A DNA stretch of 58,923 nucleotides from positions 1-58,923 of IMG/VR virus record IMGVR_UViG_3300025853_000094; one strand, written 5' to 3'. The position numbers and the translations under genes are program-made. Shown here in pieces: positions 8,158-48,369 of this stretch. The stretch is from a virus. Each line of letters starts with the position of its first letter. The first letter of the stretch is position 1. The notes below the pieces were generated by a model, which worked only from the letters and a program-made list of their open reading frames with translations, made no database searches and was not told where the DNA came from.

Positions 8158-8430
8158 CTATTTATGAAACAAATTAAACCATGCAGTCACAAATGCCCCG
8201 GCAATCGCGACAAAGAAAGCAACCACGGTATTAAAGAATCCCTTTTGAAACCTGAGATTCTCTTTCTGCTCAACCTCAAGTTTATTGATTCGATACTCAT
8301 TGGTCTGGTTCTTCTCGATCATTCTTCTGGTATGTTTCTCAAGGTTGCTGACCTTCTCTTCGGTCCTCACACTTGTAACCAGTAACGATTCAATCTTCTC
8401 TTCCAGTTTGTTAAAACGATCTTCAGTCAT
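8158..8430 (-). CDS. Small coiled-coil protein with C-terminal membrane helix
   Basis: 90 residues. Residues about 1-65 form a charged heptad-like coiled coil (RFNKLEEKIESLL, NEYRINKLEVEQ), and residues about 66-86 form one membrane helix (NTVVAFFVAIAGAFVTAWF). This layout resembles XhlA-type haemolysin/holin-associated proteins, so a role in membrane or lysis functions is possible, but no lysis neighbour was seen. Ends with FHK at a TAG that also creates a CATAAATA string, which I rejected as a promoter. Confidence 0.5.
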   Translation of the reverse strand: MTEDRFNKLEEKIESLLVTSVRTEEKVSNLEKHTRRMIEKNQTNEYRINKLEVEQKENLRFQKGFFNTVVAFFVAIAGAFVTAWFNLFHK

Positions 8431-8698
8431 TATTTTCAGTGATTTGTATTTTCAGTTCCGTTGCATTTTCACCCTTCATCAATCGATGATATAAGTCCCT
8501 CTCAATGCTATAGGTTTTTCCGACAACCAACTCAATCGGCATTTGATTGTCGAACTGAAGAAACCAATCAGTCCCATTCAGTATCGTGACCTCTCTGTTC
8601 CTTCTGTCTCTATGCCATACCAGTTCATCACTATTTACATCAGCACAAAAGCATCTTTCAATGCTCTGGTCTTCACGAATCGTATCAGTATAGGGCAT
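8423..8698 (-). CDS. Small cupin-like conserved phage protein
   Basis: 91 residues. The segments ELVWHRDRRNREVTILNG, WFLQFDNQMP and GKTYSIERDLYHRLMKG follow a beta-barrel pattern with a histidine in WHRD and another in YHR, as in small cupin-like proteins of T4-like phages. Metal binding is plausible but not proved. The 3' end overlaps the coiled-coil gene by 8 bases. The start lies two bases downstream of the upstream gene's stop. Confidence 0.5.
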   Translation of the reverse strand: MPYTDTIREDQSIERCFCADVNSDELVWHRDRRNREVTILNGTDWFLQFDNQMPIELVVGKTYSIERDLYHRLMKGENATELKIQITENND

Positions 8699-8700
8699 TA

Positions 8701-9225
8701 TTACCAGAAGAACTTACCGCCGCCCTCAAGACCCAATGCCTTGGCGAACCACGGCAAACGACAAGACCAATAACTTGGTTTTGTCTTATCATTTCTTGTC
8801 TCACACTTATGTCTTGCTGCGAAATTCTTACGTGCCTCTGGATCGTTAATCTTTGCTTGCAAACCAGAGGTATCACCAAACTCTACTTTGATGACATTGC
8901 CTTTGTCATTCTTGACATAGACATAAAACTTCTTGTTACCTCCACGTTTGGGTTTCTCTAACTCAGGTTCTTTTTGTTCCTCAATCATAGGAACATCAAG
9001 AGGCACATCCTTACCCTCATAGACCCCCATAAGACCAATATCTGAATCTAGTAGGGTTTTGTCTTGTGAGTCTAGGAGGGCAGGATCAAGATTACGTGCC
9101 TCCTGAAAGAACAGAAGGTATGCTTCAGAACCAATGCGAAAAATGTTGTCAGAGAAAGGTATCGAGTTCTCTAGGTGATAGTCGATACCCTCTCTGACAA
9201 CTTCATATTGGTCGAAATCAATCAT
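8701..9225 (-). CDS. Conserved phage protein with C-terminal Cys/Trp-rich domain (DUF5872-like)
   Basis: 174 residues. A variable acidic N-terminus (about 1-90) precedes a compact conserved C-terminal domain: KKFYVYVKNDKGNVIKVEFGD then ARKNFAARHKC and WSCRLPWFAKALGL. I recognise this C-terminal pattern from marine myovirus structural or head-associated proteins; the name DUF5872 is from memory and should be checked. No enzyme motif is seen. It overlaps the next gene by four bases (ATGA), in the run downstream of the internal head protein operon. Confidence 0.5.
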   Translation of the reverse strand: MIDFDQYEVVREGIDYHLENSIPFSDNIFRIGSEAYLLFFQEARNLDPALLDSQDKTLLDSDIGLMGVYEGKDVPLDVPMIEEQKEPELEKPKRGGNKKFYVYVKNDKGNVIKVEFGDTSGLQAKINDPEARKNFAARHKCETRNDKTKPSYWSCRLPWFAKALGLEGGGKFFW

Positions 9226-9478: not shown

Positions 9479-11797
9479 TTACGAAATGTAGGCATTCAAC
9501 TCATAGCGTCCAGATTCCAGACCATAGACCTGAAACGAAACAACCTTGCGAGTTGGCTTACCACCCTTTTCAAGTTCAAGAGTGAAGCTGTTTGTCTTGC
9601 CAGCAGAAGGCTTGCGAGGACCACTTGAAACATTGGTGAACCAGAGGTCTTCGTCAACCTTGTATCCATTTCGAGCAACAAGGTCCAGAACTTCACTCAA
9701 GGCAGAAGTGTATGAGTCATGGTAGATCTCGTAGTCACTCTTGGACTTGCGCTTTTCTTCCAACTCCTCAGTGGACTCTTCAATCTCTTCCTTGACATGA
9801 CTCACAGAAACAGCACCGATTGCCTCGTATTTTTGAACTTCAAGGGGCTTGTCAACACCTTCGACCTTTTCCTCTTCATCATCCGCATCGCTAATGCCCT
9901 TGATCATCTTCTTTGCCTTCTCATAGGCAAGTTTGCGAATCTTCTCACGAAATTCACGACGACGAGCATCGAGTCTTTCAGTCTCTTCAGGAAGGTTATC
10001 GACTACTTTGTATCCAGTGGTTGTATCCAATGTAGCGAGCATATCATCTTCATCGGGATGATTGTCGTCATCAGCAGCAGCTTCGGCATCAGGGATGGTA
10101 TCCAAGATGCTGGCAACGATTTCCTCTTCTTCCTCTTCAGTAAGATCAAGTTCAGTCTCCTCGCTAATACCCATTCCCTTCAGCGTATCAGTGAGATTCT
10201 GCATCCAGAAACCCAGAGTATTCTTGGCGAACTTCTTCTTGCTCTTCTCAACTTCTTGGTCGGTCTTGGCTTGATCGGCAACAGCAAAGGAGTGGAAGTA
10301 ATCAAAGGCAGCATCACTGGTATTGAACTTCTTGTTCAGGTCAATCTTTGCCTCTTCCAACTCCTCAGTGGATTCCCTGCGAGCCTTTCGGATATCTTTT
10401 TTAGCGGTCTTGATATCCTTTTTCAATTGTTTAGAACGTCTGATTTCGCTTGATTTACTTTTCAGTTTCTTGAGTTTCTTGGCGCGAGCATCATTTCTAC
10501 CTTTACGAGTCAAGAATCTCTTAGCACCCTTTTTAATCAGGTTACCAATAAGCCCTTCTTCAACATCACCCTCATCATCTTCCAACTCATCAGTGGATTC
10601 TGAAATGTCTTGCACATCCAACACATAGATTTTCGAGTATTTTTTGTGACCCGAATCGACGGCAATATAGAAGTCATCATCATAATCACCTTTTCTGAGA
10701 TCAGCAACTGCCTTCTCAACTCCATCATGAGAAATCGTTAAGACCACATTTGCATCAGGGTGGTTTATGATCTGCTTATCAGTCAACTTGGGCTTCTTCT
10801 TACCTTCTCCCAAATCTTCAGTAGATTCTTCCAACTCCTCAACTGATTCAAGTTTCTCTGATTCATCGATGCTATACTTCGACATGAAAAAGTAGCCGCC
10901 AGTGTCATTCTTGTCAATAGCAGCCACATGACGGTCTCCATCGAATGGGTGAATCCAGAGGGCATCCCCAGACTTCACCTTGGTCTTAACTGAATGCATC
11001 TTACCTCTAATGATGTGCTCCCCGCGACTTTTGGCTTTCGTCCACTTCTTGCTATCAGGTTTGATGTCAAAGATCGATTTCGCTGACTCTTTGACCGGCT
11101 TGCCGTCTTTAGAGATGATGCCACGATAACCTTCAGCTTCACGGTCACTCAGGAACTTCTTCGCCTTGTCTAAAGTCATGAACTTGGTCACCTGAATTGG
11201 ACCGCGCTTACTCTTGGCATATTTAACATGAAAGTCTGGTGTTTGCTCTTCCAACTCCTCAACTGATTCTTCAACAGAGGCATATCCTTTAGCAGCAGGA
11301 ACCAAAACTTTATCATAGAAGTTCCTTGCTCCACCGATCCAACCCCACCCATCAGTTGACTTCTTGCCACCATGCTTCTTAGCCAAATTGATGAACGCAT
11401 CAAGACCGGGACCAGAACCCCTATACGATTTCACGGCATCATCAAAAGAGGGGGGATTGGTAAAGTCTTCATCATCAAAGACTTTGTTTGAAGTCAACCA
11501 CTTATAGGCATCTTTACCCGAAATCTTTGCTGCCTCTTCCAATTCAACGGATTCATTCTTCTCAGGCTTCTCATCATCACCCTTCCAACCAGCATCAATC
11601 TCATCAAAGAACTTCTTCTTGTCATCACCCTTAAGTTCAGATGGTGATTTCACACCATACTTTTTCAGAGTGTCATTGAAGAACTTCTGATAGGCTTCCT
11701 TGTCGCCGGTGGCTTCTTCAATCGCTTCTACAGACTCCCCAGCCATGATTCGCTTGGCAGTCTCTGCTAGTTTTTTTGTAAGTTCGTCGTTATACAT
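9479..11797 (-). CDS. Modular internal-head-type protein with repeated ESxEELEE linkers
   Basis: 772 residues. It is built from small globular modules separated by repeated acidic linkers: ESVEAIEEA (about 21), ESVELEEA, ESVEELEE, ESVEELEESTEDLGE, ESTDELED, ESTEELEEA, EETELDLTEEE and ESTEELEE. Recognisable modules are an N-terminal AYQKFFNDTLKKYGV..KKKFFDEID domain, a very basic segment (RNDARAKKLKKLKS and on), and a C-terminal DYEIYHDSYTSALSEVL..FQVYGLESGRYELNAYI domain known from phage structural proteins. T4 gp21 cleaves after [LI]xE, and most linkers contain LxE (LEE), so it may be a polyprotein processed in the prohead; this is inference. A CTAAATA late-promoter-like box lies just before the ATG. 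Confidence 0.65.
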   Translation of the reverse strand: MYNDELTKKLAETAKRIMAGESVEAIEEATGDKEAYQKFFNDTLKKYGVKSPSELKGDDKKKFFDEIDAGWKGDDEKPEKNESVELEEAAKISGKDAYKWLTSNKVFDDEDFTNPPSFDDAVKSYRGSGPGLDAFINLAKKHGGKKSTDGWGWIGGARNFYDKVLVPAAKGYASVEESVEELEEQTPDFHVKYAKSKRGPIQVTKFMTLDKAKKFLSDREAEGYRGIISKDGKPVKESAKSIFDIKPDSKKWTKAKSRGEHIIRGKMHSVKTKVKSGDALWIHPFDGDRHVAAIDKNDTGGYFFMSKYSIDESEKLESVEELEESTEDLGEGKKKPKLTDKQIINHPDANVVLTISHDGVEKAVADLRKGDYDDDFYIAVDSGHKKYSKIYVLDVQDISESTDELEDDEGDVEEGLIGNLIKKGAKRFLTRKGRNDARAKKLKKLKSKSSEIRRSKQLKKDIKTAKKDIRKARRESTEELEEAKIDLNKKFNTSDAAFDYFHSFAVADQAKTDQEVEKSKKKFAKNTLGFWMQNLTDTLKGMGISEETELDLTEEEEEEIVASILDTIPDAEAAADDDNHPDEDDMLATLDTTTGYKVVDNLPEETERLDARRREFREKIRKLAYEKAKKMIKGISDADDEEEKVEGVDKPLEVQKYEAIGAVSVSHVKEEIEESTEELEEKRKSKSDYEIYHDSYTSALSEVLDLVARNGYKVDEDLWFTNVSSGPRKPSAGKTNSFTLELEKGGKPTRKVVSFQVYGLESGRYELNAYIS

Positions 11798-11802
11798 GCT
11801 AC

Positions 11803-11809
11803 TATTTAG
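11803..11809 (-). promoter_or_regulatory. Possible late promoter (CTAAATA variant)
   Basis: The minus strand reads ACTAAATA then five bases and the ATG of the 772-residue gene. T4 late promoters are TATAAATA and marine relatives accept other first bases; CTAAATA is a weaker match. The short distance to the start codon matches the pattern seen at gp20 and other late genes. Placed at the end of the upstream gene. Confidence 0.35.
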
Positions 11810-12484
11810 TTATTTGAGTTTTGAGAGTTGGATAGTCTTCTTTACAGCATCCTTTGGAATATGTGAGACTGCATAGTTACCGGGATCTCTTGGTTCTAGA
11901 TTGGGGAGCTTCTTGCGATCCAGAACAAGAAGATATCCTTCTCCAGTGTCACGATATGCCACCAGAGCAAAGCGTCCAGCAAGGTGAACATTGTCAGCAA
12001 CATATGAACCATCAATGTCACTGGTGTTCCCCTTGCCTTTAGATTTTACTGCACCCTTACGAGTCAGCACATTGTATTCAGCACCAGAGATTCCACGATA
12101 AACCTCTGACTTGCTGCTCTTGAGTTTATTGAGTTTCTCTGTGATAGTGCGAAGGTCACCTTCTGGTTCCCAGATCAGGAAGTCTTCTACCTTGGATTCG
12201 TTAAGGTCAAATCCTTTATATCCAAGTCTTTTATTCATCAACTTGACGGCATCCTTATAGCTCAAGTCTTTTTTTACGTATGCCCATGATGAGCGAATCC
12301 CACCACGAACCTTGCCATCATAATTCTGTTTCAGAACCCAGACATAATAACCACCCTCTTCTTTTGGTCTGCCATCAAGTCTACTGTCTCTACCGAATGC
12401 ATATGTTTTTCCACTTTTTGCTTTTGTGGCAGTCTTCTGATAGACAGAGGCTCCTTCAGAAATATATTCAATGAATGTTTTCAT
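11810..12484 (-). CDS. Capsid-targeted protein with ADP-ribosyltransferase-like domain
   Basis: 224 residues. I use the ATG at 12484 because it begins the leader MKTFIEYISE, nearly identical in pattern to the T4 internal-protein leader MKTYQEFIAE; a longer start is less likely. It overlaps the previous gene by four bases. The C-terminal half (about 125-215) has SEVYRGISGAEYN (R130), a GNTSD turn, a DGSYVADNVHLAGRFA segment and YLLVLDRKKL, an arrangement resembling R-S-E class ADP-ribosyltransferases, where the arginine in a YRG motif starts the NAD site. The final glutamate is not obvious, so activity is uncertain. T4 Alt is also a packaged ADP-ribosyltransferase. Confidence 0.55.
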   Translation of the reverse strand: MKTFIEYISEGASVYQKTATKAKSGKTYAFGRDSRLDGRPKEEGGYYVWVLKQNYDGKVRGGIRSSWAYVKKDLSYKDAVKLMNKRLGYKGFDLNESKVEDFLIWEPEGDLRTITEKLNKLKSSKSEVYRGISGAEYNVLTRKGAVKSKGKGNTSDIDGSYVADNVHLAGRFALVAYRDTGEGYLLVLDRKKLPNLEPRDPGNYAVSHIPKDAVKKTIQLSKLK

Positions 12485-13140
12485 GCTCCCTTGTGTTTCT
12501 TCCATAGGTCAGCATCAGTTGTCTTCTGAGTCTTTCCACCAGTGACAAATGAATTCACCCTAGCTAAACCCCACTGTTCAGGAGTAGTGCCGGGTCGATG
12601 ACCAGTTCTCCATGCACCTACACCCCTCTTATAGACATCCCAGAGAATATCAAAGGCAATTCCACTACCATCTGCCTTATTCTGGACTGCCTTCTTGGGA
12701 TTTGATTCCGCGAGTTCTGATTCTTCTTTCTTAGTCATCGAACGGTCTTGCCAATCATATGAAACCTTGTCATCAGTGATCGGTCCACCTTTTGCCCATG
12801 TGGTGCAAGTGCGAGCAGAGTGACACTTGAAGTGATGCATCCAGCAGTATCCAAGTTCACCATCATCATCAGATGTTTCACCGGGCATACAGTCTTTCAT
12901 ACGAGCACTGATATCAAATGCAACACAATTGGCGCACACTGATTTCTTTGCTGCTTCAACAGAGGTATCCCACTTCTTTGCAATCTTCTCCCAATAGTCA
13001 CCCGGTTCATCTACATTCAAGGGACCATAGGCAAACTGCTTGGTTGTGGCATCACGATTCTTTGTGTTGAGTTTTACATCCTGTGTCGCTGGTGGACAAG
13101 GGTGTTCTTTTTCGGTAAGATATTCAGTGAACGATTTCAT
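12481..13140 (-). CDS. Capsid-targeted Cys-rich protein with DUF5824-like domain
   Basis: 219 residues. It starts with the leader MKSFTEYLTE. Residues about 68-125 are rich in cysteine: CANCVAF, KDCMPG, GYCWMHHFKCHSARTC and TWAKGGP, suggesting a zinc or iron-sulphur site. Residues about 160-212 (FDILWDVYKRGVGAWRTGHR, WGLARVNSFVTGG, TTDADLW) match the DUF5824-type phage domain as I remember it. No catalytic role can be assigned. Four-base overlap with the upstream NTase gene's stop and the ART-like gene's start puts it in the capsid-cargo operon. Confidence 0.55.
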   Translation of the reverse strand: MKSFTEYLTEKEHPCPPATQDVKLNTKNRDATTKQFAYGPLNVDEPGDYWEKIAKKWDTSVEAAKKSVCANCVAFDISARMKDCMPGETSDDDGELGYCWMHHFKCHSARTCTTWAKGGPITDDKVSYDWQDRSMTKKEESELAESNPKKAVQNKADGSGIAFDILWDVYKRGVGAWRTGHRPGTTPEQWGLARVNSFVTGGKTQKTTDADLWKKHKGA

Positions 13141-14954
13141 TTCTTTTTCCCATAGAGTTGCTGATACTTCTTTGTGTATCTGGAAGGCTTGGTCTTGGCA
13201 GACGCATCACCGGGAGCGGGTTTGTAAGCAGATGGGTCATCTGTTGCTTTCTTTGTCTGCTTCTTGAAGTGAGATGAGCGACTCTTCTTGGTGCTCTTTG
13301 CCATCTCATCGCCCTCTGCATCCTTGGCATAGTAACGGTCTGGTCCTTGAAGGTCATCTTCTTCTTTTTCTTCTTCCAATCCAGCTTCACGAGGGTTTCG
13401 TGTCCTTCGCTCAAGGTATCTGGTGAGGTCAGGAGTAGGAACGATCTTCGGGCGAACCCCAAACGAGGGGTTCGCCTTGTTTGTTGCCTTGTCCCTCTTG
13501 CCGCTAGAAAGATACTCGAAATGTCTGGGATAAGCCTTTGCCAGACCTCTGAGTCCCGCTAGTGTAGTGTTCAGGGCAAGTGCAATATCATCGGCATCCA
13601 CGGTGTTCTCTCGCTGCCAGAGCTTGATCAACTCCCTTGCCATCTGCTCCTGCTTCGGGTTTGGAGCAGACTCATTCACCGCAAGATTTGCCAGCTTGTC
13701 CTTGAGCCGCATCATCATCCGCCTTTTGGTTCCTGAGACTTCCAGCCCATACCGACTCCCATAGTCATCCTCCAGCTTCTTGATCAGACTCCGTGCCTGT
13801 TCCTTACTCAAGACCAGCTTGCCCCTTTCCAAAGAAAACCAACCATCCTCCAGACCCAGAACTTCATGTCCCCATGTGGAGGCAGTGGCATCCAGTTCAG
13901 ATATCTGGGCGTTGCTCAATTTGACTGTGATGGTTCCTCCTGCCTTGGGATCAAGTTTTTCTTCAATGGGTTGAAGGTCATCTTCTTTTTCTTCTTCCAA
14001 TCCAGCTTCACGACGAGCAGAATAGTATGCAGCAAGTGCCATATCGATTCTCTTCTTCTTGTCCTTACCCTTGAACTGAGGGGCATCAGACTTCACGAAG
14101 TCATCAATCCATGTATCAACATCTGCCTTGGGATCAAGTTTCTCTTCGATGGGTTGAAGGTCTTCCAACCAACATTTGAAGGTCACCTTTTCATTATTCT
14201 CACAAACCACAAAATTAGGTTTGCGTTCGACCACTCTGAGTTCTACACCCGCCTTTGTGACACGATCACCGACATTGAAGAGTTTACCCTCAGTGTATTG
14301 TTCACGGATATCACTTACCTTTGGAAGTGCGATGTGTTTTCGAAAGATAAAGGACTCTTTGAGACCCATACCCTTACGAATGGCATTCAAGAGTTCTTGG
14401 ACTTCTCCAAAGTTCTTGGGAAGACCAGTGGCGAATAGTTCCAGATCGTTATCCGCTGCTGCGGCACGCATCTTGGATGCTGACATTCCAGAAACACCCT
14501 CTGCATCAGGATCTCTTTCACCAGCAGAGATGACCTGAATACCATCCTTGAAGTTGTAGAATCCATCCTTTCTTTCCTTGCCGTTGTATTTGTTCAACAA
14601 GAGCTTGAACTCATTCACACGGTCAGAACCAGCAACATAGACGAATTCTGTATACCCTTCCTTGTATGCACGATCAGCAATATGAAGTGCAATCTTGACA
14701 TTCTTGTCCATGTAGATGTTACGAGCATGTTTTGGAAACATCTTACGCATGAACTTCACCTTGTCATTATAACTCAGTGGATTCTTCTTTGCGTCCTGTG
14801 ACTGAGAAGGATAAATCTGGTAATCATTCTTACCAGCAACCTTGGCAACCTTATCAATGAGCTTCTGATGCCCAATGGTAGGTGGATTGAAGCGACCGAA
14901 GGCAGTCACCAAGGTCTTCTTCTTTTCTTCTGTAAACTGACTGAACGATTTCAT
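13137..14954 (-). CDS. Capsid-targeted multi-domain protein with cytidylyltransferase-like domain
   Basis: 605 residues beginning MKSFSQFTEEKKK. Residues about 14-180 form a nucleotidyltransferase domain: AFGRFNPPTIGH (the [HT]xGH motif at 26-29), AGSDRV and SGMSASKMR (the ISxTxxR-like motif), as in NMN/pantetheine-phosphate adenylyltransferases. The rest holds a KOW-like region (FNVGDRVTKAG), a helical DTWIDDFVKSDAP module, then a region of about 200 residues absent from simpler forms, and a basic tail ending SRYTKKYQQLYGKKK. The strings DDLQPIEEKLDPKA and REAGLEEEKE both occur twice, flanking the insert. The enzyme substrate is unknown. It is in the packaged-protein operon by leader and position. 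Confidence 0.65.
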   Translation of the reverse strand: MKSFSQFTEEKKKTLVTAFGRFNPPTIGHQKLIDKVAKVAGKNDYQIYPSQSQDAKKNPLSYNDKVKFMRKMFPKHARNIYMDKNVKIALHIADRAYKEGYTEFVYVAGSDRVNEFKLLLNKYNGKERKDGFYNFKDGIQVISAGERDPDAEGVSGMSASKMRAAAADNDLELFATGLPKNFGEVQELLNAIRKGMGLKESFIFRKHIALPKVSDIREQYTEGKLFNVGDRVTKAGVELRVVERKPNFVVCENNEKVTFKCWLEDLQPIEEKLDPKADVDTWIDDFVKSDAPQFKGKDKKKRIDMALAAYYSARREAGLEEEKEDDLQPIEEKLDPKAGGTITVKLSNAQISELDATASTWGHEVLGLEDGWFSLERGKLVLSKEQARSLIKKLEDDYGSRYGLEVSGTKRRMMMRLKDKLANLAVNESAPNPKQEQMARELIKLWQRENTVDADDIALALNTTLAGLRGLAKAYPRHFEYLSSGKRDKATNKANPSFGVRPKIVPTPDLTRYLERRTRNPREAGLEEEKEEDDLQGPDRYYAKDAEGDEMAKSTKKSRSSHFKKQTKKATDDPSAYKPAPGDASAKTKPSRYTKKYQQLYGKKK

Positions 14955-15706
14955 TCTTCACTCTTTTTCTTGCCCTTCTCCTGTTCGGCTTTCTTCAACT
15001 GAGGAAGGAGCTTCTTGGCAATACGATTAATGCCACCCTGCATCTTATCTAGTTTCTTTTCGATGCGTTCTTGTTCACCAGCAGAAACATCAGCACGGTT
15101 TCTACCCTTCAACAGCTTGGTGTATAGAAGGTCTCTTGCTTTCTTCTTGGCACGTTTCTGAAGTGTTTCGGTTGAAGCTTTCTTATTCTTACCCCTCTTG
15201 AGAGCACGTTGAATCTTTGCCTTGTTACGCTTGGCAATCTGCGAACGCTTGATACGTTGTGCGCGAGTCAGTGCTTCATCCAACTCCTCAGTGGATTCTG
15301 AAATTCCGAGCTTCTTCAATTCTTTGGAAATCTTCCCTTTGAGATCAGTCGCCTTCTTGAAAGCGTGTTTAGGCATCATCCCTTTGTTCTTATAGAGGTT
15401 GAAAAAGTCATTGAGGAATGCAGAAGCCGAAGAAAGGTAATCCTTTTCCTTGTTGACCTTAAACCAACCCCAATATTGTTCTGCTTTATTCAAAAAGGAC
15501 TCACCTTTGAAAGCCTCCTCTTCTAACTCAGTCTCTTCCTTCATCAACCTATCAATCTTGCTCTGAATCATCTTCTTGTATCCCTCGATGCCACCATAGT
15601 TCTTGGCAATCTTGGGATCAGGATTCTTGAGAAGTGCTTTCAGATCTGCAATGTCTTCTTGCTTGGATTCGTTAATTTCGTTTCTGATCTCTTTGATTGA
15701 TTTCAT
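14951..15706 (-). CDS. Basic internal head/core-type protein
   Basis: 251 residues. The N-terminus MKSIKEIRNEINESK is a divergent form of the capsid-targeting leader with an INE cleavage-like motif. Linkers EETELEEE (about 58) and ESTEELDE (about 140) match those of the 772-residue protein. The C-terminal 110 residues are very basic (ALTRAQRIKRSQIAKRNKAK, KKARDLLYTKLLKGRN, RIEKKLDKM), similar to DNA- or core-binding tails of marine T4-like head proteins. It probably sits inside the capsid and may help neutralise packaged DNA; this is inference. Confidence 0.6.
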   Translation of the reverse strand: MKSIKEIRNEINESKQEDIADLKALLKNPDPKIAKNYGGIEGYKKMIQSKIDRLMKEETELEEEAFKGESFLNKAEQYWGWFKVNKEKDYLSSASAFLNDFFNLYKNKGMMPKHAFKKATDLKGKISKELKKLGISESTEELDEALTRAQRIKRSQIAKRNKAKIQRALKRGKNKKASTETLQKRAKKKARDLLYTKLLKGRNRADVSAGEQERIEKKLDKMQGGINRIAKKLLPQLKKAEQEKGKKKSEE

Positions 15707-15707
15707 T

Positions 15708-16943
15708 CTAGTGTTCCCATCCTTTGATGATATCTGGTGAAAAATTGTTCATGGAGAATTCCAGTCTATCCACCAGTTTGACTGCTCCACCACCGATCTT
15801 ATCGATTGCCACAAATCCTTCCTGACCTGTGACACGAAATCCATTCTTTGTGCGAACGAAGGTATCCAGTTTTTTGAGGTCATCAAGTTTTGCAATGATA
15901 AGTTTCTTTGCCACAACTACTGCATTCTGCAATTGAAAAACCAAGTCAAGGTTCTTCTGGTTTTCCGGTGAGAAGAACTTCAGGAATTCATCTCTTCTCT
16001 GTTCGACACCAGCCTTACCTTTCTCGGTCTTTCTCTTTTCTGCTTCTTTGGCATATTTATCATTGACCCAAGCAATCATGTTCTGGACATGCTTCTTGGT
16101 ATTCGTTACCTCTTCACCCCTACGGACATAGGTGTTATTGAATGTCTCAATCGTCTTTGCAAGCTCAGGGTCACCTTCAATCTGACGAAGAGTAGAACCA
16201 GAAATCTTCTGGAAGATCTTACCAGCAGTAGAGAGTGCTTTCTGAACCTTTGCAGTATCACTGGAATTCAGGAGTGCTTTACCAGAGATGTCACGAAGAC
16301 CAGCATCTTGAAACCAGACACTTGGTGTTTGCTTGAGCTTCGATGCATCCACATCATAGGAAGCAGTCATGGACTCAAAGTCTTTACCTGCATATGCAGT
16401 ATGAAAGACCACACCAAGATTGGCTTTGGAAATCTGTTTACCCAAGGCACTGCTTGCAGGAACCGCATACACAATGGTATTGGGTTGAAAGGTCAGGTAG
16501 GATTCACCATCAATGGTTTCTTTCTTCAGGTCACTCTTCGTGAACATGATGTCCCCTTGAATGACTCCCTTGATACCAAGCTTGGGAAGTTCAGCAAGGG
16601 CAACTTTCATCTTTGCTGCAAGGTCACCAGACATATCTGCATCAATCTCTGCATCTGTCTTGTAGACCTTTGGCTCCTTGTTAAAGATACCCTTCTTGGC
16701 AACAAAGAACTTACCATCTCTTGGATCTTGACCAGCAAAAACAGCAGGAGCACCATCCCACTTCACGGTAATGTCAACCTCCTTGGATGAGTTACCAGCA
16801 AGCATATCTCTCAGAGAACGAAGAGCAAGAATAGCTTGGCGAGCACCAGAGACACCACCATAGATTACCTGATCTTCAATATGAGTCATGTGGGTATTCT
16901 TACCCACTGCTGCTTCGGAAATGAAGTCAAGGAAGGTGTTCAT
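15708..16943 (-). CDS. Capsid-targeted protein with ligase-like KxDG motif
   Basis: 411 residues from the ATG at 16943, which begins MNTFLDFISEAAVGK, very close to the T4 internal-protein leader. I chose it over an upstream non-ATG start; the ATG lies one base after the preceding stop. Residues about 58-90 read ITVKWDGAPAVFAG and KFFVAKKGIF; K61-W-D-G64 is the covalent-nucleotide motif I of DNA/RNA ligases and capping enzymes, and IQGDIMF later fits a motif III/IV-like strand. Other ligase motifs are not obvious, so it may be a degenerate or novel nucleotidyltransferase. The C-terminal half is helical and lysine rich. Confidence 0.55.
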   Translation of the reverse strand: MNTFLDFISEAAVGKNTHMTHIEDQVIYGGVSGARQAILALRSLRDMLAGNSSKEVDITVKWDGAPAVFAGQDPRDGKFFVAKKGIFNKEPKVYKTDAEIDADMSGDLAAKMKVALAELPKLGIKGVIQGDIMFTKSDLKKETIDGESYLTFQPNTIVYAVPASSALGKQISKANLGVVFHTAYAGKDFESMTASYDVDASKLKQTPSVWFQDAGLRDISGKALLNSSDTAKVQKALSTAGKIFQKISGSTLRQIEGDPELAKTIETFNNTYVRRGEEVTNTKKHVQNMIAWVNDKYAKEAEKRKTEKGKAGVEQRRDEFLKFFSPENQKNLDLVFQLQNAVVVAKKLIIAKLDDLKKLDTFVRTKNGFRVTGQEGFVAIDKIGGGAVKLVDRLEFSMNNFSPDIIKGWEH

Positions 16944-16944
16944 A

Positions 16945-17883
16945 TCACCAAGGGTCTCCACTGAGTTTAAGAGACGATGCCATCTTTTCAGATTCGAATT
17001 TGAATCGAATCTTCATGATTTTCTTGGGACCAGCCTTTACTCCAATAGACTCATTTCCAATTGGCTCAAGTTCAATATCATTCTTAGAAAAAGCAGAAAG
17101 CTTATCGTTCTTGAGTGGGTCCATTGTTACTGCCTTATATGGTGCCTTTTTACCTTGTCCAGTAACTTTAACATATGGAGGATAAAGAACTTCAGCGTCC
17201 ATCCAGTCATCTAAAAGATACTTTTTCAAAGAGGCTTGGTCAAACTGAAGAAGACGCTTTAGGAGGATATCGCGGAACTCTCGCATGGTTGTGACACCAG
17301 CTTCGATTGTCTGCTTTTGGATATCCTTATTGGAGCGGATAAATTGTTTCCTCGCTTTGGTTGAGGGAGGAAGGTCAAGTCGTCGGATAGTATCTTCGGT
17401 GACATCCTTGAGAGTTGCGGCGAAGGAAGTGTTCAGGCTTCTGTCAATAGTTCCAATGCCGGGATTTTTGAAACCGATATCACCCTTGCTCTTCGTGGCT
17501 TTTGCAGATAGACCAAGAAACCCATTAGCAGGACCATCAGCAAATCGAATAAGAACATCAGTGGGATTCTTCTTCTGGTTGACTTCTTGACCAACTGCCT
17601 TGGTCATTGAGTTTGGTCTTGCGGTCCACCAGACTTGAGTGGGTTTACCTTTATAACCCGCTTTCTTTGCCCATTTAAGAAAATCAACTGCCATTGCCTC
17701 TGCCTTACCTTTGGCATCTTCAACAGCAGCAGGTGAAGCTTGTTTTATTCTTTCTTCAAACTGCCTTCTTGCATCAGCATCAAACCAGCGATTTCCAGCA
17801 AGGACGTATCCAACCCAAATTTCATTGATGTCTGCTAGAATTGTGTTGGCAGATTCCGTTAGGTATTCTTTAAAAGATAGCAT
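16945..17883 (-). CDS. Capsid-targeted protein, possible PD-(D/E)xK-like nuclease
   Basis: 312 residues from the ATG at 17883, giving the leader MLSFKEYLTESAN; an ATG three codons upstream is also possible. It is the first gene of the late operon, about 40 nt after a TATAAATA box. A central segment NPTDVLIRFADG then GFLGLSAKATKSK followed by FKNPGIGTID has the D-x(n)-x-x-K layout of PD-(D/E)xK nucleases, although the usual acidic residue before the lysine is replaced by serine. The end is rich in lysine. The nuclease call is weak; a DNA-processing role on entry would suit a packaged protein. No other family was recognised. Confidence 0.4.
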   Translation of the reverse strand: MLSFKEYLTESANTILADINEIWVGYVLAGNRWFDADARRQFEERIKQASPAAVEDAKGKAEAMAVDFLKWAKKAGYKGKPTQVWWTARPNSMTKAVGQEVNQKKNPTDVLIRFADGPANGFLGLSAKATKSKGDIGFKNPGIGTIDRSLNTSFAATLKDVTEDTIRRLDLPPSTKARKQFIRSNKDIQKQTIEAGVTTMREFRDILLKRLLQFDQASLKKYLLDDWMDAEVLYPPYVKVTGQGKKAPYKAVTMDPLKNDKLSAFSKNDIELEPIGNESIGVKAGPKKIMKIRFKFESEKMASSLKLSGDPW

Positions 17884-17924: not shown

Positions 17925-17932
17925 TATTTATA
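17925..17932 (-). promoter_or_regulatory. Late promoter of the internal head protein operon (TATAAATA)
   Basis: The minus strand shows a perfect TATAAATA box, the recognition sequence for gp55-type late sigma factors, 41 nt before the ATG at 17883. It is the only strong promoter before the run 17883 to 11810, so it probably drives all six capsid-cargo genes late in infection, at the same time as capsid assembly. Confidence 0.75.
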
Positions 17933-17949: not shown

Positions 17950-19311
17950 TTAGTGCTTGAGATTCGCATAGTCAGCATCACCACTTGCCACTGGAGGAGA
18001 GTCACTGATGATTCCAGCAGTCGCATTTTCAAGGTCAAAGAGTCTCATGTAGGAACGGTCCACACCAATACAGAACTTCTTGTTTCTCTCTGGGTCATTG
18101 TAACGATTCTTCAACTGCTTGATCATCAGTTGATTCTTGTTGGCAAGGTCATCGTTACTGATTGCTGCAATCATGAAGTCAGCAGTTGCTGGAAGACCAA
18201 AGGATTCGCTGGTATCTGTCAAGTCAACATCTGAACTTTTGAAACCCTCACGGGTAACCTGAGTAGCAGACCAGACAGGGACATTAAACTCCACGGCAAG
18301 ACCACGTATCTCCTCTGCAATTGCCTTGACAAAGGAGTAGGTGTTGATGGAACCACCAAGACCACGAACACGACTGGAGGCACATATGTTCAGGTAGTCA
18401 ATGAAGATGATATCAGGAGCAAAGTTCTTCTTCATCTTCAACTCATTCAGTAGTGCTCGAAAGTGTGCAACATGAGCAGACCCTGTAGGATACTCCTTGA
18501 TGACTAGCTTACCCTGAGTCTTCTGGCGAATGGAATCAATCTTGGAATCAAAGATCGGTTTCGTGACATTCTCAAGGTCATCCAGAGATATGTCAAAGAG
18601 ATTCGCATCAATGCGTTCAGCAATCTTTTCCTCTGCCATCTCCATTGTGATATAGAGAACATTCTTACCCTGCTGAAGAGCAGCACCAGCAAAGTGACAC
18701 ATCATCAGACTCTTACCAACACCAGTGCCAGCAAGGATAATGTTCAGTGTCTTTCTTGGTAGACCACCCTTGGTGATGGTATTGAACATCTCAAGGTCAA
18801 AGGACTGCTTCTCCTCAACACGATGATATGCTTCATAACGCTCAGTGGCATTCTCAATGTAGTCATGACCAACATTGGTATCAAAGGTCACTGCAAGTGC
18901 CTTACTCAAGATATCTGGAATCGCTCCTTCTGCTTTGTCTTTGGTCTTACCATCAATGATTTGAATCGACTCCATGATTGCCAGATATACAGCACGGTCC
19001 TTGCACCACTTCTCAGTAGAGTCAAGCAGCCAGTCTTCATTGACATCATCTTCTTGCTTTGAGAGCGACTGTATAGCATCGACAACTTCCTCGACGTTTG
19101 CCTTACTGAAGTCTGACTGCTCATACTCGATCTGGATGGCAGATGAGTTTGGAAGCTTGTTGTATTTTGTAATGAAGCGAAGAATCAACTCATAGACAGT
19201 GCGAGAAGACCCTTCAAAGTATTCTGGTTTGATATGGGGAATCGCCTTGCGACAGAACGATTCGTTTTGGATTAGGTTTCTAAGAATTAGGGGTGTTAGG
19301 TTGCTGCTCAT
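17950..19311 (-). CDS. 41: Replicative DNA helicase (DnaB-like, T4 gp41)
   Basis: 453 residues. Hexameric 5'-3' helicase that unwinds the replication fork and recruits the primase. Residues about 185-320 contain the RecA-type core: IILAGTGVGKSLMM (Walker A), NVLYITMEMAEE, PDIIFIDYLNICAS (Walker B) and WSATQVTREG, as in T4 gp41 and DnaB. The N-terminal 150 residues are the helical collar domain. The length matches T4 gp41 (475). The 5' end overlaps the 99-residue gene by 32 bases. Confidence 0.92.
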   Translation of the reverse strand: MSSNLTPLILRNLIQNESFCRKAIPHIKPEYFEGSSRTVYELILRFITKYNKLPNSSAIQIEYEQSDFSKANVEEVVDAIQSLSKQEDDVNEDWLLDSTEKWCKDRAVYLAIMESIQIIDGKTKDKAEGAIPDILSKALAVTFDTNVGHDYIENATERYEAYHRVEEKQSFDLEMFNTITKGGLPRKTLNIILAGTGVGKSLMMCHFAGAALQQGKNVLYITMEMAEEKIAERIDANLFDISLDDLENVTKPIFDSKIDSIRQKTQGKLVIKEYPTGSAHVAHFRALLNELKMKKNFAPDIIFIDYLNICASSRVRGLGGSINTYSFVKAIAEEIRGLAVEFNVPVWSATQVTREGFKSSDVDLTDTSESFGLPATADFMIAAISNDDLANKNQLMIKQLKNRYNDPERNKKFCIGVDRSYMRLFDLENATAGIISDSPPVASGDADYANLKH

Positions 19312-45374: not shown

Positions 45375-46625
45375 TTAGGAAGGATCAGAGATGTTGATGT
45401 TCTCAACAACGAATCGACGGTAGTAAGGATTGTCATCACCAGCAGAAGCGCCAGTAGCAACAGTTCCAGCAACAAGAGGATTATGAGCAATGCCATAACG
45501 GGTCTTGAAGGCAATACGAGGCTGGAAGTTTTCTTCACCAATGCCTTTGACCATTGTCAAAGGAACGTAAGGAGCATAGAAGAAACCAGCATCGTAAGGA
45601 TTGCTACCACGATAACCAACATTGACAACACCAGCAGAGGCGTAAGGGTCAACGTAGATCTTCATGTTACCAATGGAACCAACGAGTGTGTTCTGACCGT
45701 AGTCGGAAGTAACATTGGAACCAACACCAGTGCTGTCGAGCTTACCAGTAGCGGCAAGAGCGGAAGCAACATCAGCGTGAACGATGGCGAGGTTACCCTT
45801 ACCACGGCGTGTCTGACTGAAGATTGTGTTGGCTTCAAGGTCCAACTGGAACAACAGGGCTTGGAACTTCTCAATAGCCCAACGACCATCAGCATCGATA
45901 GCAAGGTCGAAGATACCAGTAGTGGAGAGACCAGTCTGCTGGGCACCGGGCTTGGCAGCATAGTCGAGTTCACCAATAATTTCTCTGTTGATTTCAGCAA
46001 GAATCTCCTGAGAGAGAATATTGGCGAGTTCGCTTTCGGCATCAAGACCATGAACAGCCTTGAGATCCTGAGCGAGTTCCATTGTGTATTCAGCCTTCAG
46101 GGCGCGAGTCTTAGCAGTAACTGTGCATTTCTCGATTGTGAAACCCATGTTGGCAGTGATGTCACCTTCAGCGAAAGCTGTAGTTTCACCAGCGCCAGAG
46201 TCGTCGCCAGAGAATGTCTTATCAGCAACATTGAAGAGAGCTTCAGTGTCACCAGTGGTAACGGCTCCAGCGGCTCCAGCGGAATCGGATTCGTTATAGC
46301 GAGCCTTCATTGCAAAGATGAGACCTGTAGGACCAGTCATGGGCTGGACACCACAGACATCATAAGCAATCAAAGAAGGCATGGCGCGACGAACGAGGCT
46401 AATGAGAACGGGGTCGCCGTTTGCAGCAGAAGAAGCAACTGTTCCTGTTCCGCTTTCTTCAGTGATGAAGTTAGAAAGCGCAGCAGATTGCTTGCGGGAT
46501 TCAACTTCAGTGTTTTCGAGAAGCTGTGCAGTAACAGCCATACGATGTGCATCCTTGATAGCAGGAGCTTCGGGATGCTCAAGGATGGACTTCCATTTTT
46601 CGATATTTGTTTGTGAATTAAACAT
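45375..46625 (-). CDS. 23: Major capsid protein (gp23)
   Basis: 416 residues. Precursor of the main head subunit; HK97-type fold expected. The start NIEKWKSILEHPEAPAI and VLISLVRRAMPSLIAYDVCGVQPM match gp23. An LSNFITEESG site at about residue 56 is a likely gp21 cleavage point ([LI]xE), giving an N-terminal delta piece as in T4. It is shorter than T4 gp23 (521). It lies between gp22 and its own terminator. Confidence 0.96.
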   Translation of the reverse strand: MFNSQTNIEKWKSILEHPEAPAIKDAHRMAVTAQLLENTEVESRKQSAALSNFITEESGTGTVASSAANGDPVLISLVRRAMPSLIAYDVCGVQPMTGPTGLIFAMKARYNESDSAGAAGAVTTGDTEALFNVADKTFSGDDSGAGETTAFAEGDITANMGFTIEKCTVTAKTRALKAEYTMELAQDLKAVHGLDAESELANILSQEILAEINREIIGELDYAAKPGAQQTGLSTTGIFDLAIDADGRWAIEKFQALLFQLDLEANTIFSQTRRGKGNLAIVHADVASALAATGKLDSTGVGSNVTSDYGQNTLVGSIGNMKIYVDPYASAGVVNVGYRGSNPYDAGFFYAPYVPLTMVKGIGEENFQPRIAFKTRYGIAHNPLVAGTVATGASAGDDNPYYRRFVVENINISDPS

Positions 46626-46666: not shown

Positions 46667-47701
46667 TTATTTGAACAAACGACTCAGTGAATCATGATAC
46701 TGTTTCATCTCGGGAGAAAGCCCATCAGTGATGTCTTTCTTTTCTTCGCCTTCAATGATTTGCTTAGTCTCAATGATCTCATCGTTACCTTCATTCAATT
46801 CTTTTTCTTCAGACTTGTTTGAGAAATAGGATTCCTTGATGGTCTTAACCTTCTTGGCGAAGGTATCAGCATCAACAAACTCTACATCTTCAACAAGGCA
46901 AGCAAGCTTGACACTCTGTGTAGTTGCAAGATTTTCGGACGCTTCAGAGAGAATCTTCTCGCGAGAGAGTTTCTCAACCTGTTCCATGAGTTCGGCAACA
47001 ACACTAGTGCTTTCTTGCAGTTGACTTTCGAGTTCAATAGCCTTGTTTTCAACCTCTTCATAGAGATCGACTTTGGACTCAGGCACTTCGATGTAATTTT
47101 CTGTAAAGACAGTCTTCAGAGCAGACATGAAGTCTTCAGTCAATTCGGAGCGAAGACCAGCATCAATAGCAACTTCATTCTCCTTGACCCATTCAGTGAC
47201 AACGTAGTCGAGATAGGAGTTAACCTTCTCGGCAAGGTCGGTGCGAATGGATTCAGTTTCTTCAGTCAGTTTCACTTCATACTCAGACTCCAACTTCTCA
47301 GTGGCTTCACGAAGCTTGGAAGTGAAGGCAGCTTCAAAGATGACAGAGGCTTTATCCTTGAAGTCCTCAGTGAGACCTTCAGTGGAGTTAACAAGAACAT
47401 CAAGATCTTCCTTATAAGAAGCCTTCAGTTCTTCTTCTTCTTCTTCCTCTTCTTCCTCGTCGCCATGCTCCATTTCTTTCACAGACTTCTTGGCTTCAGA
47501 GACTTCTTCTTCTTCCTCTTCTTCCTCACCAGCTTCGCCGTCGCCTTCTTCCTCATCTTCATGAGCAACTTCGACCTTGGCTGTCTTTTCTTCTACATCT
47601 TTCTTGGCTTCTTCGATAGACGCAGTTTCTTCAGTTGTTTCCTCAACAAGTTCTGCATCATTCTGAAGCTCTTCCTCAACAGGGTTTTCTTTTTCTTCCA
47701 T
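46667..47701 (-). CDS. 22: Prohead scaffold/core protein (gp22)
   Basis: 344 residues. Main core protein of the prohead, degraded by gp21. It has the expected very acidic, glutamate-rich N-terminus (runs such as EEEEEEEE near 60 and 90), long helices with DVLVNSTEGLTEDFKDKASV, and a C-terminal KKDITDGLSPEMKQYHDSLSRLFK-type tail. Many LTE/LxE sites are present. Position between gp21 and gp23 supports the call. Confidence 0.88.
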   Translation of the reverse strand: MEEKENPVEEELQNDAELVEETTEETASIEEAKKDVEEKTAKVEVAHEDEEEGDGEAGEEEEEEEEVSEAKKSVKEMEHGDEEEEEEEEEELKASYKEDLDVLVNSTEGLTEDFKDKASVIFEAAFTSKLREATEKLESEYEVKLTEETESIRTDLAEKVNSYLDYVVTEWVKENEVAIDAGLRSELTEDFMSALKTVFTENYIEVPESKVDLYEEVENKAIELESQLQESTSVVAELMEQVEKLSREKILSEASENLATTQSVKLACLVEDVEFVDADTFAKKVKTIKESYFSNKSEEKELNEGNDEIIETKQIIEGEEKKDITDGLSPEMKQYHDSLSRLFK

Positions 47702-47721: not shown

Positions 47722-48369
47722 TTAGAGTTTTGAGAGGAAATCTTCGAAGACGTTTTTTTGCGCTTCAGCAAGCTGTGCCGAAGGAGCCTTCTTGATCTCA
47801 GTCTCGTATTCTTCAATTTGTCGAGCAGTCAGTTTTCCGTTGTCCCAAACCCAGTCCACGCCTTCCATGATGCCATTTACAAAGGCACCGGGAGCGGAGG
47901 GGTCTTGAACGATGTCAACTGTAGAAAGCACGAAGTCGTTATTAACGCGACTCACACCATCTTTCATCTCGACTGTTCCCATACCACGACTAGAGACACC
48001 CAACTTCACTCCACCTTCAACGAGTCCTTTCACAATTTTACCCATCGGTGTATCGAGTATGAGTGCCTTTCCAACAACATCATCACCGTTCCATTTCAGT
48101 TCAGTGATGCGATGTGAAACTTTATCAAGGTTAATCGTAGGTCCATCTGGGTGATTCAACTCACCAACAGCACGACCTGTTTTCACCTGTTCAGAGATAT
48201 ACTTGTTGACTGCGCCCTCAAGTATGTTCTTTTCGTAAATTCTATTGTTGCGATTCTTCTTGTTCGCTTGCATGAACACACCCTCAATGAAGACATTCTT
48301 TGCTCCATTCTTACCTTCAGTGATGGTGTATCCAAGGTCTTGTTCGATGTGTTCTGAAATTAGTTTCAT
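47722..48369 (-). CDS. 21: Prohead core protease (gp21)
   Basis: 215 residues. Serine protease (U9/S78 type) that matures the prohead by cleaving after [LI]xE. Catalytic histidine in VGELNHPDG (H73) and serine in LGVSSRGMG (about 126-127) are visible. Its own N-terminus has LISE and ITEG motifs, probably for self-processing. It is the likely enzyme for the capsid-targeting leaders at 12-18 kb. Size matches T4 gp21 (212). Confidence 0.93.
   Translation of the reverse strand: MKLISEHIEQDLGYTITEGKNGAKNVFIEGVFMQANKKNRNNRIYEKNILEGAVNKYISEQVKTGRAVGELNHPDGPTINLDKVSHRITELKWNGDDVVGKALILDTPMGKIVKGLVEGGVKLGVSSRGMGTVEMKDGVSRVNNDFVLSTVDIVQDPSAPGAFVNGIMEGVDWVWDNGKLTARQIEEYETEIKKAPSAQLAEAQKNVFEDFLSKL

Follow-up and report, generated by a model that had tools for sequence, protein, structure and literature searches.

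A gene cluster with T4-type capsid-targeting leaders and enzyme-like bodies as probable phage head cargo

The 58,923-base virus record IMGVR_UViG_3300025853_000094, which over its full length we call the window, carries on its minus strand, from 17883 to 9479, seven tightly packed genes (ORF1-ORF7) downstream of a gp41-type helicase gene (17950-19311). Very probably this operon encodes late-expressed head cargo, a cluster of enzyme-like proteins that T4-type leaders target to the capsid for delivery with the DNA. The leader is real, is independent of its cargo and has an exact, exchangeable boundary; by analogy, virion presence, docking, cleavage and injection are probable in the window phage. 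An earlier note on this DNA had described 9479-17883 as an operon of six leader-bearing genes. Six consecutive, nearly gapless genes are indeed found, with the claimed ATG codons at 17883, 16943, 15706, 14954, 13140 and 12484 on the minus strand, and the interval also holds a seventh, leaderless gene at 9479-11797. Because further in-frame starts lie a few codons upstream of ORF1 (ATG 17892), ORF2 (GTG 16961) and ORF6 (ATG 12505), the exact starts of these three are a choice. The late promoter that the note had placed at 17925 is present; its octamer occurs eight times in the window against 0.91 expected, and none of 100 shuffles reaches eight.

17925-17932, minus strand: T4-type late promoter TATAAATA, about 40 bases before the ORF1 ATG
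16945-17883, minus strand: ORF1, leader MLSFKEYLTE and a 302-residue body with a predicted restriction-endonuclease-like fold
15708-16943, minus strand: ORF2, leader MNTFLDFISE and DUF6267 (PF19782, 6e-107)
14951-15706, minus strand: ORF3, weak leader MKSIKEIRNEINE and a basic C-terminal domain, with internal ETELEEE and ESTEELDE sites
13137-14954, minus strand: ORF4, leader MKSFSQFTEE, a cytidylyltransferase-like domain and further domains (PF01467, 8.3e-7; phrog_395, 4.5e-70)
12481-13140, minus strand: ORF5, leader MKSFTEYLTE, a Cys/His-rich domain and DUF5824 (PF19141, 2.9e-15)
11810-12484, minus strand: ORF6, leader MKTFIEYISE (phrog_24586, 3.8e-24)
9479-11797, minus strand: ORF7, 772 residues, leaderless, small domains between ES(V/T)xxLEE-type repeats, a candidate multi-site cleavage substrate

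Leaders in the window and in its relatives

Glutamate occupies residue 10 in all six leaders of ORF1-ORF6, one more than the earlier note had counted, and the [LI]xE ending that the note had ascribed to almost all of them is found at residues 8-10 only in ORF1, ORF2, ORF5 and ORF6. The same four genes carry the full T4-type decapeptide (hydrophobic at 4, 7 and 8, Glu at 10), which fails at residue 8 in ORF3 and ORF4 and is lacking in ORF7. According to the available text of PMC9026906, T4 mutants place the targeting function in residues 4 and 7 and the processing function in residues 8 and 10.

A strict regular expression, built from the window leaders after they had been seen, gives five matches among 1246 candidate starts, all in the operon, against 0.022 expected in residue shuffles. 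Because that expression was fitted in this way, the T4 decapeptide was taken as an outside standard: residues 2-10 of IPII and IPIII, whose start MKTYQEFIAE, as quoted in the note, is the one in the T4 record, were compared by BLOSUM62 similarity with 1224 candidate starts on both strands. The five top ranks fall to ORF6, ORF2, ORF5, ORF4 and ORF1 in that order (scores 28 to 18, the best others being 17 and 15), and ORF3 ranks 15th. Judged by sequence, five leaders thus appear solid; that of ORF3 is doubtful, and its membership in the set is uncertain.

The leader also stands apart from its cargo among relatives. Among contigs with DUF6267, of which the best 80 of 316 were used, some of them almost identical, the window-fitted expression matches 67 plus-strand ATG starts and none of 4444 plus-strand GTG/TTG or 2318 minus-strand starts; at least one such leader is present in 39 of the 80 contigs. 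Once the leaders are removed, BLAST at 1e-4 sorts the 67 proteins into 11 groups with no similarity between them. Decapeptides were also collected without any regular expression, from the nearest ATG 10-27 residues before the DUF6267 body. Such an ATG was found at 181 of 208 loci, some of which are stretches of one contig, and yielded 74 distinct decapeptides. Glu10 is present in 52 of these, information after Met1 is highest at positions 4 and 10, then 8, 5 and 7, and most DUF6267 relatives have the leader. In the predicted models of ORF1 and ORF2, the leader regions are the only stretches with a predicted local distance difference test score (pLDDT) under 50 (residues 1-10 of ORF1, mean 36; residues 1-17 of ORF2).

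For ORF1, relatives were taken from the best 80 of 141 contigs (90 loci, 20 of them leader loci from 10 contigs), and the N-terminus was placed from the body alone. In 65 of the 80 contigs the protein is leaderless and its start codon precedes the position just after Glu10 by one codon (54 contigs) or by two (11). Ten contigs have the leader and no native start, and five have the leader together with a retained native ATG; in four of these five a cut after the leader Glu would yield a protein beginning at the native Met, the fifth (L117) having seven extra residues. By sequence comparison the leader is thus a removable add-on in this family. A tree of 27 representative bodies, four of which bear the leader, requires three switches between its presence and absence; these could be gains, or else a single gain with two losses.

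These results bear on the idea that the N-terminal segments are family-specific and owe their likeness to chance or to common origin from a single duplicated gene. The leader DNA of ORF5 and ORF6 shares 21 of 27 bases and that of ORF2 and ORF6 20 of 27, so that some leaders could be mutual copies. Against this idea stand the 11 unrelated body groups, the three changes in the ORF1 tree (with the same alternative of one gain and two losses) and the native ATG kept behind the leader in five contigs, and we regard it as extremely improbable.

Head machinery and virion proteomes of relatives

The window encodes a T4-type head module with a gp20-like portal, a gp21-type protease (at 47.7 kb, as the note had it), a gp22-type scaffold and a gp23-type capsid protein.

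47722-48369, minus strand: gp21-type prohead protease, the presumed leader-cutting enzyme (phrog_207, 1.2e-78)
46667-47701, minus strand: gp22-type head scaffold, the presumed leader docking partner (PF25623, T4_CASP, 1.5e-59; phrog_237, 2.1e-64)
45375-46625, minus strand: gp23-type major capsid protein (phrog_138, 7.1e-131)

In the proposed mechanism, hydrophobic residues 4 and 7 would dock a leader-bearing protein to the gp22-type core and the gp21-type protease would cut after Glu10, at a site set by residues 8 and 10. The gp23-type protein itself has a possible cleavage site after FITE-56 that resembles the leader ends. The mature cargo would remain in the head, be delivered with the DNA and act in the first minutes of infection, at a guess in nucleic-acid repair, in cofactor or defence countermeasures or in attack on host DNA. 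An early-infection role seems likeliest because the cargo includes a nuclease-like fold, the ligase-like DUF6267 and a cytidylyltransferase-like protein.

Leader-bearing cytidylyltransferases have been detected in virions of four T4-like cyanophages: S-CREM2, S-SZBM1, S-SM1 and S-SCSM1. For S-CREM2, Table 3 in the available text of PMC10665884 gives 52 detected virion proteins. Five of the six proteins with a T4 decapeptide score of at least 14 are among them, against 52 of 215 overall (p 0.0035; 215 of the 219 coding sequences, with the cut-off of 14 chosen after the gap in scores from 16 to 10 had been seen). The five are gp154 (the cytidylyltransferase), gp136, gp14 (a kinase), gp6 and gp13. 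The DUF6267 protein of this phage, gp87, is leaderless and is absent from that table. In S-SZBM1, the cytidylyltransferase 140 stands in the virion list (PMC9146016, Table 1, in the text available) and begins MRFRQFIIEA, a nine-residue leader, one shorter; the adjoining DUF6267 protein, 141, is leaderless and absent from the list there. T4-GC190 of S-SM1, which begins MKKFSAFLNE, was detected in virions, and the accessible part of the same report (PMC3037559) gives the S-PM2 counterpart as not detected in an older study; the S-PM2 copy has no leader. In S-SCSM1, for which virion labels come from the record and from the text available of PMC9602691, the NMNAT-like protein 91, with MKSFLQFLKE as its N-terminus, carries a virion label; S-SCSM1_91 and S-SCSM1_30 have the two best T4-like starts of 3719 in the stretches examined. 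By analogy, the virion proteomes of relatives mostly agree with the leader rule, a fair match.

Two leader-like segments lie elsewhere than at the very N-terminus. The virion-detected S-CREM2 gp12 (L089, 7704-10313), which has a Cas9-like label, shows RFASFMAE after 17 residues, and the virion-labelled S-SCSM1_93 (L184, 3627-3836; 69 residues) has RTFKEFLEYIE as its C-terminus.

Could the decapeptide be a docking tag for some other phage or host complex, such as the replisome, late transcription or the tail, and not for the head? The position of the genes is in keeping with that: in P-HM1, S-PM2 and S-SZBM1 replication and nucleotide genes flank the cluster, with the gp41-type helicase at one end and the primase and nrdA at the opposite end, and in the window the helicase gene likewise lies ahead of the cluster. 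The likeness to the T4 internal-protein leaders, the late promoter, the detection of leader-bearing relatives in virions and the resemblance of the [LI]xE end to the presumed gp23 site argue for the head, and we hold the docking tag to be very unlikely.

Several observations weigh against capsid targeting of the cluster. Within the window, the ORF4 leader ends FTEE and has no hydrophobic residue 8, and that of ORF3 is a poor leader, residue 8 being Arg and INE at 11-13 forming an alternative candidate. The looser expression M..[FYILM]..[FYILM]..E finds six matches against a shuffle mean of 4.94, which by count is chance level, and in the DUF6267 contigs a looser expression matches 100 plus-strand ATG starts, but also 17 plus-strand GTG/TTG and 14 minus-strand starts. 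In S-CREM2, where the cut-off was chosen late, the strict window expression has no match, simpler expressions give p from 0.010 to 0.06, and gp83 has the top leader score there, yet was not detected in virions. S-SCSM1_30, whose start ranks highest for T4 likeness in the stretches examined, likewise has no virion label. Conversely, S-SZBM1_139 and 136 are virion-listed without a leader in the text available, S-SCSM1_89, 90, 92 and others are virion-labelled without one, and the NMNAT of S-CBWM1, named as virion-detected in a phage termed non-T4 (PMC10665884, text available), has none. The authors of that report state in the same text that co-purification of virion-detected proteins is not excluded. 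For the window phage, the reading draws on sequence and on the published protein lists of relatives. Weighed together, the ranking by the T4 query alone, the 11 body groups, the exact boundary, the conservation of leader residues 4, 10 and 8, then 5 and 7, and the virion proteomes of relatives support the note's claim of T4-type capsid targeting of larger, enzyme-like cargo.

Cargo proteins and internal cleavage sites

The AlphaFold2 model of ORF1 (27 sequences, pLDDT 87.9) has as its best PDB match the restriction enzyme HinP1I (Foldseek probability 0.95, E 2.5e-3; Z 8.4, root-mean-square deviation (rmsd) 4.2, 210 residues aligned); the lower matches are mostly nucleases of the same fold, at Z 5.7 or less, together with some unrelated rows. 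PD-(D/E)XK nucleases have the catalytic triad D...(D/E)xK. D109 and K128 of ORF1 are invariant in the 27 sequences, and S126-A-K128 is kept, with Ser in place of D/E at 126. The model points to a nuclease-like fold, and because Ser replaces the usual acid at 126, nuclease activity is only putative. By eye, the virion-labelled S-SCSM1_90 (L182, 32459-33793), which lies beside the NMNAT-like gene in the place of ORF1, shows a PD-(D/E)XK-like D...VSLKK.

Pfam lists DUF6267 without an assigned function, and 463 phage records match the family. In covalent nucleotidyltransferases, motif I (KxDG) is followed by motifs III, IV (EG) and V (K). ORF2 has KWDG at 61, QGD at 129, EGFV at 375 and VKLVDR at 388, so that ligase-type motifs I, III, IV and V are present in order, and across 46 diverse sequences K61, D63, G64, G130, D131, E375, G376 and K389 show either complete conservation or conservation of at least 90%. 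All 50 structure matches listed for the ORF2 model (pLDDT 88.4) are by title RNA or DNA ligases or ligase complexes. The best reaches a middling Z of 8.3 (rmsd 3.8, 183 aligned), T4 Rnl2 and Rnl1 score about 7, and Foldseek alone is weak (probability 0.63). The reading of ORF2 and DUF6267 as a ligase-like covalent nucleotidyltransferase is credible, since the motifs add to a Z near 8 that is insufficient alone. The motif residues of ORF1 and DUF6267 are conserved in leaderless relatives too.

The first domain of ORF4 belongs to the CTP_transf_like superfamily, with TIGH and SASKMR; as an NMNAT it falls far under the cut-offs of the NCBIfam models (TIGR01526, for example, 19.8 bits versus 341). 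Viral stretches contain at least 597 relatives of ORF5. Its Cys/His-rich domain is at least 72% identical across 53 distinct contexts, in proteins of up to 1180 residues and varied architectures. The identification of ORF6 as an ADP-ribosyltransferase was dropped: there was no Pfam (E up to 1) or NCBIfam match, and the one weak PDB sequence match was to a MerR-type regulator (E 0.38). PADLOC gave no match up to E 0.1 for the seven proteins, and the window contains no tRNA genes and no Rfam matches at gathering scores.

It is also conceivable that the leaders target the capsid and are removed, with the cargo serving only head assembly or DNA condensation and being inactive in the new host. Such a role has been discussed for T4 IPIII, whose mutants show head-assembly aberrations (PMC9026906, text available), and ORF3 and ORF7 are strings of domains with no recognised enzyme domain. 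Against this stands the conservation, as in enzymes, of KxDG, QGD, EGFV and K389 in the 46 DUF6267 sequences and of D109 and S126-A-K128 in the 27 of ORF1, and we judge such a purely structural role unlikely.

The leaderless ORF7 may, in the reading as delivered cargo, be cut at internal LEE sites. It contains six E[LIV][ED]E sites against a shuffle mean of 0.35 (0 of 2000 shuffles have as many), most of them within the ES(V/T)EELEE-type repeats that separate its small domains; plain [LI]xE, at 15 versus 10.0 (117 of 2000 shuffles have as many), is in no clear excess, and ORF4 has no excess of internal cleavage-type sites. Two ORF7 domains and the C-terminal domain of ORF3 follow N-terminal leaders in other contigs (MKDFKGFMSE in L103, MISFSQYLIE in L059 and, for the ORF3 domain, MIGFKKYLTE in L078). 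L067 and L072 have a fusion in which a different small protein precedes DUF6267 and the leader persists internally as KTFKTYISE. By eye, the window genes 8423-8698 and 8701-9225, downstream of ORF7, are like parts fused before DUF6267 in L067 and L203, a resemblance by which they may share the cargo pool.

We counted [LIV]xE within 15 residues before domains that lie more than 40 residues into their frame. The motif precedes internal DUF6267 in all nine distinct contexts (control 0.15), at least four of which have their own Met at the leader and may be plain starts. It precedes the ORF3 C-terminal domain in 18 of 26 (control 0.27), the last domain of ORF7 in five of nine (control 0.23), its second domain in three of six (control 0.21) and the ORF5 Cys domain in only 11 of 33 (control 0.21). 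By these counts, cut linkers are favoured in the case of DUF6267 and of the ORF3 domain; the ORF7 domains lean weakly the same way, and the ORF5 domain does not. Part of the material thus plausibly contains linkers that can be cleaved, and the evidence for polyproteins is mixed. Tentatively, and at somewhat less than even odds, we suggest that the head address is a freely exchangeable module that is gained or lost at an exact boundary and on gene fusion is kept as a protease-cuttable linker. T4-like phages of this kind might in this way load a changing set of enzymes into the head in advance, trim it and inject it; a ligase-like repair enzyme and a nuclease would be part of the set, and its sources would be single genes as well as cleavable polyproteins such as ORF7.

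Relation to known systems

The cluster resembles IPI, IPII, IPIII and Alt of T4 in its ten-residue leader of the same spacing, in the gp21-type protease and gp22-type scaffold, and in the spread of the leader over several genes with unrelated bodies. The T4 internal proteins are small (95-193 residues), and ipI lies about 7 kb from the neighbouring pair ipII and ipIII, whereas the window has six clustered leader-type genes of 219-605 residues, in addition to ORF7, with ligase-, nuclease- and cytidylyltransferase-like parts. Among the T4 internal proteins, only Alt is termed an enzyme in the available text of PMC9026906.

Also close are the cytidylyltransferase/NMNAT-like virion proteins of marine cyanophages (S-SM1 T4-GC190, S-CREM2 gp154, S-SZBM1_140 and S-SCSM1_91), which belong to the superfamily of the first ORF4 domain and have a T4-like leader; in S-SM1 and S-SZBM1 the cytidylyltransferase gene adjoins DUF6267. 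These proteins have been published as virion-associated, with no mention of a leader in the parts of the reports available, and the window adds leader-bearing neighbours. Phage P1 offers another likeness in DarB, a large protein that an N-terminal signal directs to the head and that is believed to pass into the cell (PMC9024508, text available). The Dar proteins have no common N-terminal sequence by BLAST according to the same part of that report, whereas one consensus serves most genes of the window. Polyvalent proteins are likewise multidomain virion proteins thought to be injected (PMC9503650, text available); the window kind differs in that some domains are encoded both by leader-bearing genes of their own and as parts of longer proteins, where they follow LEE-type linkers that are possibly cut.

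The literature searched, which included few subscription papers and no supplements, contained no mention of DUF6267 or DUF5824, and the papers in it that speak of capsid targeting and contain the terms marine and phage are by title on T4 (two reviews and one of omics) and on Salmonella phage SPN3US. The earlier note had considered this the strongest candidate for an undescribed system. The T4 internal proteins, Alt and P1 DarB are precedents and the virion cytidylyltransferases are in print; what holds of the claim is that the leader goes unmentioned in the available parts of those reports. We conclude that the system is a broader form of the T4 internal-protein system and not a new kind.

For the virion enzymes of cyanophages, the question of packaged protein or contaminant becomes a testable rule, by which packaging is expected where a T4-like leader is present, and exclusion for orthologues that lack one. 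For DUF6267, a ligase-like activity and a location in the virion can now be proposed.

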